Assembly (NCBI RefSeq): GCF_001269925.1
Contig: NZ_LHVO01000002.1
Coordinates: forward strand, 310,001 to 374,000
Direction of reading: 5' to 3'
Length of the DNA stretch: 64,000 nt
Source of the DNA: Pseudomonas sp. MIACH
Lineage (GTDB): Bacteria > Pseudomonadota > Gammaproteobacteria > Pseudomonadales > Pseudomonadaceae
Shown here one piece after another: positions 49,169-61,282 of this stretch (the stretch's first letter is position 1; each line of letters starts with the position of its first letter). The notes beneath the pieces are model-generated. The model saw only the letters and a list, made by a program, of their open reading frames with translations, was not told where the DNA came from and made no database searches. The translations under genes were made by a program, and so were the position numbers.

Positions 49169-49263
49169 AATGTGTGGGAGGGGGCTTGCTCTCGATGGCG
49201 GCGTCTCAGTTACAGCTAAGCTGACTGACACCCTGCTATCGGGAGCAAGCCCCCTCCCACATA
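49169..49263. repeat. REPIN (inverted REP pair)
   Basis: Left arm TGTGGGAGGGGGCTTGCT (from 49173) and right arm ATCGGGAGCAAGCC then CCCTCCCACAT (to 49262) are inverted REPs separated by ~40 bp of degenerate spacer. It lies between the convergent lysE-like gene and the envelope operon. Confidence 0.9.
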
Positions 49264-49290: not shown

Positions 49291-50031
49291 TCAGCGCAGG
49301 ATCTTCGGCGCTTCATCCCTTGGCAGGTTATTGCGCAACACCGGCTGGCCAGGCTCTTGATAGCCGCCGCCCAACTGTTCTGCCAGTTGCCGTGCCACGT
49401 CCTCACCCAGTGCCTTCGACACTTCCTTCACCACACGCGGTCGGTTCAGGCTCACGCGCATGTCGCGGCTGTTCACCAGCTTGGTGTCCTGGCCTTCGCC
49501 CATGGCGGTGAACGCCGAGGTGATTTCGTAGGTGCGCGTATTGATCAGGCTGAAATCCGCCACCAGCGTCAGGCCCAGCACTGCCGAGTAGCTGTTGGTG
49601 TGGTCCAGGGCGTTGATGTCCTGGGTGAAGTCGATGTCTGACAGCGTGCCGAACAGCACGTAGTCCGCACCCTTGAAGTCACCGGCCTTGATGCGCTTGA
49701 TCACGTCATAGACGTCACCCTTGGCATCGGCGGTGTAGGGCGTGCCCTGCACCAGTTGGAACTGGCGGGACTTGAGAATCTCCCCCTTGATATCACCGCT
49801 GAATTTGCGCAGCTCGATCTGCTCGATGTAGCTGCTACGGCTCTCGTACTCGCTGTAGTTCGATGCACCGCTGGCGTTATAAGCGCTGGCCTGGAAGTTG
49901 TTGCTGGCCGAAACCTGGTGGATGTACTCCTCGACCCGCGCCTGGTAGGCAAGGTCGGTCACCGCGATCTTCGGCGCGGCCGATGCGCCAAAGGCGCACA
50001 GCAGGCCGATCAAACCAATCCATGCACGCAT
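49291..50031 (-). CDS. Exported LpoB/CsgG-like protein
   Basis: A 246-residue protein with a cleavable signal (ending GASAA) and no lipobox. The body (IAVTDLAYQARVEEYIHQVSA..., ADYVLFGTLSDIDFTQ, VADFSLINTRTYEITSAF) resembles the LpoB/CsgG alpha-beta fold. Last gene of a four-gene operon, 3 bp after the LpoB-like lipoprotein. Its role is unknown; a partner in an envelope assembly is likely from context. Confidence 0.78.
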   Translation of the reverse strand: MRAWIGLIGLLCAFGASAAPKIAVTDLAYQARVEEYIHQVSASNNFQASAYNASGASNYSEYESRSSYIEQIELRKFSGDIKGEILKSRQFQLVQGTPYTADAKGDVYDVIKRIKAGDFKGADYVLFGTLSDIDFTQDINALDHTNSYSAVLGLTLVADFSLINTRTYEITSAFTAMGEGQDTKLVNSRDMRVSLNRPRVVKEVSKALGEDVARQLAEQLGGGYQEPGQPVLRNNLPRDEAPKILR

Positions 50032-50034
50032 TGC

Positions 50035-50622
50035 TTAGCGCTCCGTGGTCTTGCGGATTTCTTTTTCGTCCATCCATTCAGCCAGGCCGCTCTCGACGTC
50101 GATCAGCTGCAGGCTGAACTTGTAGAACACGTCCTTGTAGTCCGAGCTGCGCTTGACGATGGAGCTGATGGAGCCTTCCAGGCGGTACTTGGCCGCGACC
50201 ATGTTGCCGGTCTTGCTGACGGTGGACTTCTTGTACAAGCCGCTCTGGTTCTGCAGCTTGAGCTGGTCGACCTGGCTCTGCATGTCGGTGTTGTCGCTGG
50301 CGAAGCGGGCGGTGCCAGTCTTCATCAGCTGGGTCTTGATCGACGTGGTGATCTCGCGGGTGTCGATGTACTCGCTGGTCTTGTTCTTCACATCATACAC
50401 CTGCACCACCGGGCGGCCTTGCAGGATGCCGGACTGGGCCAGGGAGCGGGTCATGCTTTCGGCGATCATCTGCAGGTCGGTGGATCCGAACTCGTTGGTC
50501 ACCAACTCCACGGCCTTGGTGTCGCCGTAGCTGATGTTTTTACCGCCCAGTACCGGGGAGGTGTTCGCGCAACCGCTGGCCAGGACGGCCACCACGGCGA
50601 GAATCGAGAAGCGTGCAAGCAT
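50035..50622 (-). CDS. LpoB-like lipoprotein (penicillin-binding protein activator family)
   Basis: A 195-residue lipoprotein: lipobox VLASGC near residue 19, then the LpoB core (STDLQMIAESMTRSLAQSGI, GNMVAAKYRLEGSISSI, YKFSLQLIDVESGLAEWMDEKEIRK). E. coli LpoB stimulates PBP1b from the outer membrane. The YcfL-LpoB pair also occurs in E. coli. ATG 50622 is used (MLARFSILAVVAVLA). In P. aeruginosa the known PBP1b activator is LpoP, an unrelated protein, so the target here is open. Confidence 0.85.
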   Translation of the reverse strand: MLARFSILAVVAVLASGCANTSPVLGGKNISYGDTKAVELVTNEFGSTDLQMIAESMTRSLAQSGILQGRPVVQVYDVKNKTSEYIDTREITTSIKTQLMKTGTARFASDNTDMQSQVDQLKLQNQSGLYKKSTVSKTGNMVAAKYRLEGSISSIVKRSSDYKDVFYKFSLQLIDVESGLAEWMDEKEIRKTTER

Positions 50623-50657
50623 GGGGAAATCTCTCAGCAGCAAAAAGGATGAACGGC

Positions 50658-51029
50658 TCAAGGGGTTTTGACTTCAAGGCGGAAGTCCGCAGCCTGGGGC
50701 AAGTTGGCAATCGCCGGCAGGAAAGTCGCCTGGTTGGCGTACAGGTTGAGCACTTTCCAGGTCTCTTCATCGCCCACCGGGAATCCGTCGGCGCCCAGCC
50801 AGGCGAAGCGGTAATACATCATCTGGTTACTGCTGGTGATGTTGCTCAGTTGCACCTTGGCGGTGAGGAAGCCGTTCTCGCGGGCCACACGAATGGCACC
50901 CACGGCGATGCCCTTGAACTTGCCCATCACCACGATCTTGCTCGCGGCGCTGCCAGGCTCCGGCGGCGGTGGGGTGGCGCAGCCGGCGAGCAGGACCAGC
51001 GCCAGGGCGCCGAGGATGAAGTGACGCAT
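50658..51029 (-). CDS. YcfL family (DUF1425) lipoprotein
   Basis: A 123-residue lipoprotein: lipobox VLLAGC (Cys ~17), a Pro-rich linker, then a beta-rich domain (SNQMMYYRFAWLGADGFPVG...). YcfL sits just upstream of lpoB in E. coli and has no known role. AAGGAG precedes ATG 51029. It starts 10 bp after the COG3014 gene. Confidence 0.85.
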   Translation of the reverse strand: MRHFILGALALVLLAGCATPPPPEPGSAASKIVVMGKFKGIAVGAIRVARENGFLTAKVQLSNITSSNQMMYYRFAWLGADGFPVGDEETWKVLNLYANQATFLPAIANLPQAADFRLEVKTP

Positions 51030-51039
51030 AGCGTGCTCC

Positions 51040-52437
51040 TTAAGGTTGTTTGAGGGTGGCAATGGCCTGGGGCGGATAGCTCTGCACCACATGGGCGGCC
51101 AGACCGCCCGCGAACACCTGGTTGCCGACCACGCGCAGGGTGATCACCTGGTAGCGTTGATCGGCCTTGACCGTCACCAGCGTGCCGCCCAAGGCGTTGG
51201 GGAGGCTGACCTGGTGGTCGCCGTGCTTGAGGCGCAGGCGCGTGACCTGGGTCATGTCCGGCAGGGTGCGCCAGGTGCGGGTGTCGGCGCCTTCAGTCAC
51301 GGCCGAGGCGATCCCCAGTACCAGGCCTGCCATGGGGTTGGTCTTGTTCAGGTTGTTCTGCGCCACACCACGGCTTACCGCGCGCACGGTGGTGCGCAGG
51401 ATGATTCCCGGCATGTCGTCACGCAGGGCGCGGCGGGACATGGCCGTGGTGCTGTTGAGCGCAGTGAGGTTCTGTTGCTGGCCGTCGACACCGATCTGGG
51501 CGAAGGTCGCCGTGGAGGTGTCGGCCTTGATCACCGGGAACGACAGCGGGGTGATCACCAGGTTGCCATTGATCGGGATCGGCAGTGGCAGGCGGATCGA
51601 GTCGCGGGCGGGCGCGAGGCCACTCTGCACGACGATCAGCACGTCGGTTTCATCGGCGCCGACCTTGGATTTGTCCAGATCGAGCAGCGCTTTTTCCAGC
51701 AATGGCGTGTTAGGACGCAGCTCAATGGCCTTGCGATAACCGGGGGCGGCCAGGTCTTTTTCGCCCAGGGCTTCGTAGACGAAGCCCGCCAGGTAATGGC
51801 TGAACGCACTCTGGTAGCTGTTTTTCAGGCCGACCACTTCCGGCGCGTCGAGGGCTTGCACCGGGTAGCCGTGCAGGTCCTTGATCTGGGTGGTCACGCC
51901 TTGGCGCTCGGCTTCGTCTTCGCGCTTGAGGTATTCCTTGTCGCGCAGGTCGGCGATCACCGCTTCGCGTTCGTGGGTCTTCTTGATTTCGGTACGGGCG
52001 CCGTCGAAGTCATTCAGGGCCAGCAGGTTCAGGGCCATCTGTGTGGTCAGCATGACTTTTTCGTAGTCATACCCTTCGTAGCGACGCACCTTGTCGTTGG
52101 CCAGGAAGCTGCCGAATTGGGACAGGTACTTTGCGCTGTCGAACTTGACCGACTCTTCCCACTTGTAGACTTGCAGGTCGGCGCTGCGCCAGGCGGTCTG
52201 GCTGCCGGTCAGGTCGCCCTTGGCCCGCAACAACTCACCCTTTTCGAAGAAATACAGCAGGTCTTTGTCTTCGCCGGTGTTGTTCTTTTCCAGCAGGGTC
52301 AGGGCGGCGTCGACATTGCCGCTGGCCAGCTGCTGGTTGGTGGCTTGCAGCTCGGTGTCGTAGCTGCGGAACATCGAGCAGCCGGACAGTAAGGTGACCG
52401 CCGTGAGCGCAAGCGGAGTTAAGGCGCGAAAAGCCAT
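51040..52437 (-). CDS. COG3014-type TPR lipoprotein
   Basis: A 465-residue protein with lipobox LLSGC near residue 19, an N-terminal TPR-like region (LQATNQQLASGNVDAALTLL; EALGEKDLAAPGYRKAIEL) and a C-terminal beta-rich domain (ITPLSFPVIKADTSTATFAQ...). It matches the COG3014 family of unknown function. It heads the operon that continues with the YcfL- and LpoB-like proteins; TPRs suggest a scaffold. Confidence 0.83.
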   Translation of the reverse strand: MAFRALTPLALTAVTLLSGCSMFRSYDTELQATNQQLASGNVDAALTLLEKNNTGEDKDLLYFFEKGELLRAKGDLTGSQTAWRSADLQVYKWEESVKFDSAKYLSQFGSFLANDKVRRYEGYDYEKVMLTTQMALNLLALNDFDGARTEIKKTHEREAVIADLRDKEYLKREDEAERQGVTTQIKDLHGYPVQALDAPEVVGLKNSYQSAFSHYLAGFVYEALGEKDLAAPGYRKAIELRPNTPLLEKALLDLDKSKVGADETDVLIVVQSGLAPARDSIRLPLPIPINGNLVITPLSFPVIKADTSTATFAQIGVDGQQQNLTALNSTTAMSRRALRDDMPGIILRTTVRAVSRGVAQNNLNKTNPMAGLVLGIASAVTEGADTRTWRTLPDMTQVTRLRLKHGDHQVSLPNALGGTLVTVKADQRYQVITLRVVGNQVFAGGLAAHVVQSYPPQAIATLKQP

Positions 52438-52527: not shown

Positions 52528-52555
52528 ATTATAAGCACCGTTACTGGCAAAACAA
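52528..52555 (-). promoter_or_regulatory. Sigma-70 promoter of the envelope lipoprotein operon
   Basis: On the minus strand TTGTTT (52555-52550), a 16-bp spacer, and a perfect TATAAT (52533-52528). It lies ~90 bp upstream of the COG3014 start. Confidence 0.55.
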
Positions 52556-61187: not shown

Positions 61188-61282
61188 AAATGTGGGAGGG
61201 GGCTTGCTCCCGATTACGGTGGTTCAGTCAAAGTATTCGCGACTGACACACCGTAATCGGGGGCAAGCCCCCTCCCACATTT
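61188..61282. repeat. REPIN with 34-bp arms between ppk and ppx
   Basis: The arms at 61188-61221 and 61249-61282 are inverted copies with a single mismatch: they begin AAATGTGGGAGGGGGCTTGC and end in ATTACGGTG. The 27-bp loop carries GTCA/TGAC-type partial complementarity. It fills most of the gap between the convergent stops. Confidence 0.95.

Follow-up and report, generated by a model that had tools for sequence, protein, structure and literature searches.

A COG3014-YcfL-LpoB operon of Pseudomonas as a possible complete form of the LpoB module known from Escherichia coli

Results

The window analyzed here is a 64,000-nucleotide stretch of the Pseudomonas sp. MIACH genome (contig NZ_LHVO01000002.1, positions 310,001 to 374,000), an assembly of 6.8 Mb in 73 contigs. 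It contains four intact genes for envelope proteins, which follow each other on the minus strand with gaps of 10, 35 and 3 bp, in agreement with the spacing of 3–35 bp given in a first-pass annotation of the sequence. The first gene (51040..52437) encodes a lipoprotein of 465 amino acids with a lipobox cysteine at position 20, assigned by eye, which we take to be of the COG3014 type; the named loci closest to it belong to Pseudomonas. The second gene (50658..51029) encodes a YcfL/DUF1425 lipoprotein of 123 amino acids (PF07233, E 3.2e-18; 65.8 bits at a cut-off of 28.3). An alternative in-frame ATG for this gene lies upstream at 51092 and would make it overlap the preceding gene. Its relatives in the Protein Data Bank (PDB), 3o0l and 4gio, both lack a named function. 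The product of the third gene (50035..50622; 195 amino acids, P0003) carries a lipobox cysteine at position 18 and belongs to the LpoB family according to both PF13036 (141.2 bits, cut-off 22.3) and TIGR02722 (135.5 bits, cut-off 110.55). The fourth gene (49291..50031) encodes a protein of 246 amino acids, termed G4 in the following, with a signal peptide lacking a lipobox (by eye) and a marginal PF13036 match of 21.3 bits, just below the cut-off of 22.3.

The first-pass annotation had placed the operon behind a TATAAT promoter. This hexamer is indeed found on the minus strand (52528..52533), roughly 90 bp before the start codon of the COG3014 gene, but it is not accompanied by a matching –35 element, and a promoter scan scored no sigma-70-like site (0.9 expected). 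The hexamer is therefore at most a hint of a promoter for the operon.

Within the COG3014 protein, a single tetratricopeptide repeat (TPR; TPR_2) reaches the Pfam cut-off. An AlphaFold2 model (predicted local distance difference test score, pLDDT, 87.3; predicted template modelling score 0.87) consists of a helical TPR part (residues ~26–255), followed by a C-terminal part of strands and helices (~263–451), in which an A-D-x-R-x-W-x-x-L-P stretch forms conserved columns. Searches by fold (Foldseek, VIA-align) gave no indication of a function, as the matches listed for this protein were all generic TPR or helical-repeat proteins. In the open-access literature searched, we found no paper naming COG3014 or DUF6844 and none on this gene cluster.

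The model of G4 is less well defined (pLDDT 65.6, with 130 residues at 70–90; monomer). Ranked by Z-score, its structural matches are the middle part of FlgT (14.1), CT253 (13.5), an LPHT ring chain (13.3), PelC (12.0), CsgG (11.7), TolB (11.1) and TraT (10.6). G4 therefore probably adopts a fold like that of the FlgT middle domain, PelC, CsgG and the N-terminal part of TolB, which it would share with the FlgT/PelC/CsgG/TraT proteins at a sequence identity of about 5–15%. A Pfam search with G4 gave no FlgT match.

We next asked how well the four genes are conserved. Among 198 sampled genomes of the family, only 28, including the host genome, contain a COG3014 match, and the operon is therefore patchy within the family. 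Loci were fetched from 20 of the 27 other genomes with a match. All 16 of Pseudomonas type show the order COG3014-YcfL-LpoB-G4, and the remaining four are more distant clusters. The same order was found in all of the 80 best-scoring loci from a scan of named genome contigs (79 Pseudomonas, one Stutzerimonas), which are the best-scoring relatives among those listed rather than an unbiased sample. Since the order is the same in 16 of 16 and 80 of 80 loci, the set is more than a chance neighborhood, and the four genes are a conserved unit. The first-pass annotation had made its idea of an undescribed system depend on such co-occurrence, and in this respect it holds. In a tree of LpoB sequences, the eight of Pseudomonas type form one group (support 99/100). 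In 35 of the 80 named loci (L123–L202), a second COG3014 gene lies upstream of the first. This copy has diverged and is also present at L105:3488-4885, while the host genome has a single copy.

To describe the association beyond the family, we sampled 185 genomes from the class and counted LpoB as full at E ≤ 1e-20. Full LpoB is present in 36 of these genomes, in 33 of which COG3014 lies in the same cluster. Of the other three, G097 carries both genes on separate contigs, and no COG3014 was found in the stretch fetched around LpoB in G075 and G136. Conversely, all 30 genomes with a real COG3014 match possess LpoB (33 matches minus the short TPR matches of G085, G114 and G131). The single-sequence search underestimates COG3014, which was found in G051, G052, G053 and G038 only via the neighborhood of LpoB. 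In 14 control genomes, PF13036 matched in E. coli and Bacteroides ihuae.

The two main arrangements are COG3014-YcfL-LpoB and LpoB-COG3014. A third one adds a DUF6844-like protein and a FlgT/CsgG-like protein of 327–439 amino acids, with a weak FlgT_C match in the larger ones (L070, L071, L086, L120–L122, L209, L214 and L222; in L071, the DUF6844-like protein lacks a Pfam match and was assigned by position). DUF6844 (PF20891) passes its Pfam model in only two of the 185 genomes, both times within a COG3014-LpoB cluster. These clusters of other Gammaproteobacteria thus have COG3014, LpoB and often YcfL in common with the window operon, but carry the two additional proteins where Pseudomonas has G4. 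An unusual order occurs at L062:5563-8502, where two YcfL genes flank LpoB (YcfL-LpoB-YcfL-COG3014 in coordinate order); this genome is 82% complete and has no detectable UB2H domain.

LpoB itself is best known from E. coli, where it activates the penicillin-binding protein (PBP) PBP1B. The E. coli K-12 locus reads hinT-ycfL-lpoB-thiK-nagZ-ycfP-ndh and contains neither COG3014 nor G4, as the first-pass annotation had stated; it shares with the window operon the PF13036 family and the adjoining YcfL gene. For comparison, we used 148 genomes of the taxonomic order of genome G139, which, judging from its E. coli-like loci, is probably that of E. coli. Its families f182, f191, f185 and f189 probably correspond to Enterobacteriaceae, Pasteurellaceae, Vibrionaceae and Aeromonadaceae. 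COG3014 was matched in 63 of the 148 genomes, or 60 after removal of the weak matches of G386, G470 and G514. In eight of 20 regions fetched from this order, COG3014-ycfL-lpoB is located before ycfP-ndh, either as hinT-COG3014-ycfL-lpoB-ycfP-ndh (L208, L211, L212, L219), as COG3014-ycfL-lpoB-nagZ-ycfP-ndh (L215, L216, L221) or as hinT-COG3014-ycfL-lpoB-thiK-ycfP-ndh (L217). Thus hinT lies upstream in five of them, and nagZ or thiK lies in between in four. In L207 and L225, hinT is the only such neighbor, while the other ten regions show none of these genes, except for ycfJ in L206. Genomes with E. coli-type LpoB show hinT-(ycfL)-lpoB-(thiK)-nagZ, or a portion of it where the locus obtained was short. 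In family f189, the two states are both found beside hinT, with COG3014 in L207 and without it in L242 and L246. An Aeromonas caviae record has the same layout as L207: it carries COG3014-YcfL-LpoB, and hinT is located where the extended COG3014 frame begins. The ycfL-lpoB genes of E. coli hence occupy the same chromosomal locus as COG3014-ycfL-lpoB of its relatives (hinT upstream; nagZ, ycfP and ndh downstream), and what E. coli has there resembles this module with COG3014 removed.

The two kinds of LpoB also differ in their N-termini. E. coli LpoB is described as a protein of about 145 Å in length that reaches the UB2H domain of PBP1B and has 54 unstructured N-terminal residues (PMC9593243), and a long disordered arm (residues 20–146) is likewise described for LpoP of Pseudomonas aeruginosa (PMC7267771). 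The window LpoB lacks an N-terminus of the E. coli type: only 31 residues separate the lipidated cysteine from the Pfam domain, compared to 52 in E. coli, and only two prolines precede an anchor asparagine, compared to 17. We counted residues and prolines between cysteine and anchor in 109 rows: 85 next to COG3014 (82 distinct sequences), 19 of E. coli type and five others, among them L100, which is CsgG-like rather than an LpoB. L117, with a wrongly called frame, was left out. The COG3014-adjacent rows span 55–72 residues (median 61; all but one ≤63) with 0–5 prolines (median 2), whereas those of E. coli type span 62–148 residues (median 79) with 5–21 prolines (median 14). The proline linker and COG3014 are therefore reciprocal and nearly mutually exclusive. 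In the LpoB tree, the E. coli-type rows form one clade in 36% of the bootstrap trees, so that their grouping is not settled. Two genomes of one f189 genus (L242:1483-2091, L246:1483-2175) have a proline-linker LpoB adjoining hinT and no COG3014 there; these sequences do not group firmly with the E. coli clade and perhaps reflect an independent change.

We then compared the distribution of the module with that of its possible target, PBP1B, as judged by the UB2H domain. In the E. coli order, all 60 COG3014 genomes contain a UB2H PBP1B, compared to 67 of 88 others (p 6e-6, uncorrected for relatedness). In the class sample, UB2H was found at E 1e-14 or better in 27 of 36 LpoB genomes and in 78 of 149 others (p 0.015). 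Both p values overstate the association because the genomes are related. The host genome itself contains a UB2H PBP1B (G000:C52:9648-9899, E 5.0e-25). Directly downstream of it lies an ortholog of LpoP with 244 amino acids (L263:1396-2130; PDB 6w5q, E 7.5e-50), in line with the first-pass annotation, which had named LpoP as the activator of this synthase in P. aeruginosa. LpoP is a TPR-containing lipoprotein of the outer membrane and activates PBP1B via UB2H (PMC7267771), and P. aeruginosa is described as lacking LpoB (PMC9593243). Encoded by a separate gene adjoining PBP1B, LpoP combines a disordered arm with TPRs in a fold unlike that of LpoB. The COG3014 model, by comparison, predicts TPRs and a C-terminal domain without a long low-confidence arm. 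For the interaction of PBP1B with LpoB, residues on the UB2H side are given in a section of PMC6220978.

Genetic evidence from Vibrio cholerae bears on the same question. As described in parts of PMC4063736, mutations in mrcA and lpoA are synthetically lethal with mutations in mrcB and lpoB. A csiV lpoB double mutant is viable, whereas csiV mrcB is not viable, a difference interpreted by the authors as residual activity of PBP1B in the absence of LpoB. By these passages, lpoB of V. cholerae is genetically a PBP1B-pathway gene. A passage in a paper on V. cholerae vesicles mentions YcfM/LpoB and YcfL as members of one operon (PMC6883915). In Vibrio-like genomes of our sample (f185/g215), lpoB is linked to COG3014, and L219 of this group carries a CsiV gene (PF10972, E 4.6e-54; csiV is vc1887 in V. 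cholerae) a short distance after ndh. For this reason, the V. cholerae lpoB is likely of the COG3014-linked type as well.

Discussion

Starting from the gene linkage, the locus shared with E. coli, the predicted folds and the reciprocal occurrence of COG3014 and linker, we propose that the operon represents the LpoB module in its complete, ancestral state. COG3014 would place LpoB on a class A PBP, a task that the linker would have taken over later in E. coli. We give this explanation a probability of roughly 0.45. COG3014, YcfL and LpoB would act as one complex anchored in the outer membrane, to which Pseudomonas would add G4 as a fourth, exported protein of FlgT/CsgG-like fold. COG3014 would be the original partner of LpoB, a spacer that brings the globular part of LpoB to a peptidoglycan synthase of class A, which would be PBP1B where one exists. 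Because COG3014-LpoB is so widely distributed, it is likely that the lineage of E. coli lost COG3014, after which LpoB would reach the synthase alone by its long disordered linker. PBP1B of Pseudomonas is already served by LpoP; there, the module may provide a second input to this enzyme or have a different class A PBP as its target. A target other than PBP1B is possible in Pseudomonas because nine of the 36 LpoB genomes in the class sample are without detectable UB2H.

Several observations weigh against this proposal. Eight of the nine genomes just mentioned, scored at E 1e-14, are at least 98% complete, and the host encodes LpoP next to PBP1B. In 12 of the 20 regions fetched from the E. coli order, ycfP-ndh was not observed on the downstream side. 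Four LpoB proteins without an adjacent COG3014 (L088, L095, L097, L099) nevertheless have short N-termini of 63–70 residues with 3–6 prolines, and those of the Pasteurellaceae-like family f191 are only modestly longer than the COG3014-adjacent ones (62–72 versus 55–63 residues to the anchor, with one of the latter at 72). The role of COG3014 as a spacer is suggested by this reciprocal pattern rather than by geometry, and the COG3014 linkage of the V. cholerae lpoB by Vibrio-like genomes.

The strongest alternative, which we consider possible but somewhat less probable, is a separate envelope machine: COG3014, YcfL, the LpoB-like protein and G4 would together build a scaffold or ring beneath the outer membrane, with no action on PBP1B, and E. 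coli LpoB would have been recruited to PBP1B later, upon loss of COG3014 and gain of the linker. The short N-terminus of the window LpoB, the LpoB genomes lacking UB2H and the presence of LpoP in the host would all fit this idea. The same is true for the partners, since several members of the FlgT/PelC/CsgG fold, predicted for G4, form rings (as also indicated by PDB entry titles), and DUF6844 and FlgT_C-like proteins occur in related clusters. Moreover, a long branch (2.46) leads to the clade of 11 E. coli-type LpoB rows. Against this alternative stand the genetics of V. cholerae lpoB and the presence of UB2H in all 60 COG3014 genomes from the E. coli order. The first-pass annotation, whose interpretation is otherwise borne out in part, had favored another envelope machine as the probable role of the set. 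We find no support for that claim, because E. coli ycfL-lpoB occupies the shared locus and the V. cholerae lpoB, itself probably COG3014-linked, works in the PBP1B pathway.

A secretion pore of the CsgG kind, in which a substrate would be exported across the outer membrane through a channel made of G4 or the LpoB-like proteins, is improbable. CsgG provides the top Foldseek matches of G4 (best E 6.4e-8, TM-scores ~0.35), and the cluster of genome G103 includes a true PF03783 protein (E 7.3e-17), but G4 itself is not matched by PF03783 at E values up to 1, has no lipobox and finds its best structural match by Z in the FlgT middle domain. We rejected this pore for G4 owing to the missing PF03783 match. 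Least probable of all is an accessory of the flagellar outer-membrane ring resembling the H-ring of FlgO, FlgP and FlgT: despite the FlgT match of G4 (Z 14.1), the weak FlgT_C matches in larger partners of related clusters and a somewhat higher frequency of FlgI with LpoB (24 of 36 versus 69 of 149 class genomes, p 0.04), 12 of the 36 LpoB genomes lack FlgI, which excludes a general flagellar role for LpoB clusters overall, rather than for G4 alone.

The proposal of an ancestral COG3014-containing module can be extended, more tentatively, to the history of LpoB. LpoB may have arisen as a subunit of a COG3014-YcfL-LpoB complex of the outer membrane that spans the periplasm as one body. COG3014 would then have been lost from this locus in Enterobacteria, and perhaps separately in the f189 genus (probably Aeromonadaceae), with a proline-rich linker replacing the spacer. 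The textbook LpoB would be a reduced derivative, and the full complex an uncharacterized activator of class A PBPs, with DUF6844/FlgT-like proteins or G4 as add-ons in some lineages. LpoB has been described, at stringent cut-offs, as restricted to enterobacteria in a passage of PMC3060616. Among outer-membrane activators of peptidoglycan synthesis, LpoB is the textbook case. Should the module be older and include a TPR partner as a rule, work in E. coli has dealt with a reduced form. The LpoB and COG3014 genes of many other Gammaproteobacteria would, in that case, become a defined and testable complex, for which the proposal predicts that COG3014 and the linker are interchangeable.

Additional observations

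The modules were also compared with mobile elements. COG3014 from L217 (Vibrio-like) had no match in phage records. Against plasmid records, the window COG3014 (P0001) gave a single match, to a chromosome-size entry: NZ_AP026896.1 (L286), an Aeromonas caviae record of 4.9 Mb, is labelled plasmid pKAM479_3 and looks like a mislabelled chromosome. Several enterobacterial plasmid records contain an E. coli-type lpoB together with thiK, for example NZ_CP056259.1 of Citrobacter freundii (82 kb; 72251-72634).

Finally, the window contains two inverted pairs of GTGGGAGGGGGCTTGC, which we take to be REPIN-like elements, at 49174-49260 and 61192-61278. With up to two mismatches, GTGGGAGGGGGCTTGC matches six times in the window (0.1 expected), and one of the pairs lies just downstream of the operon.

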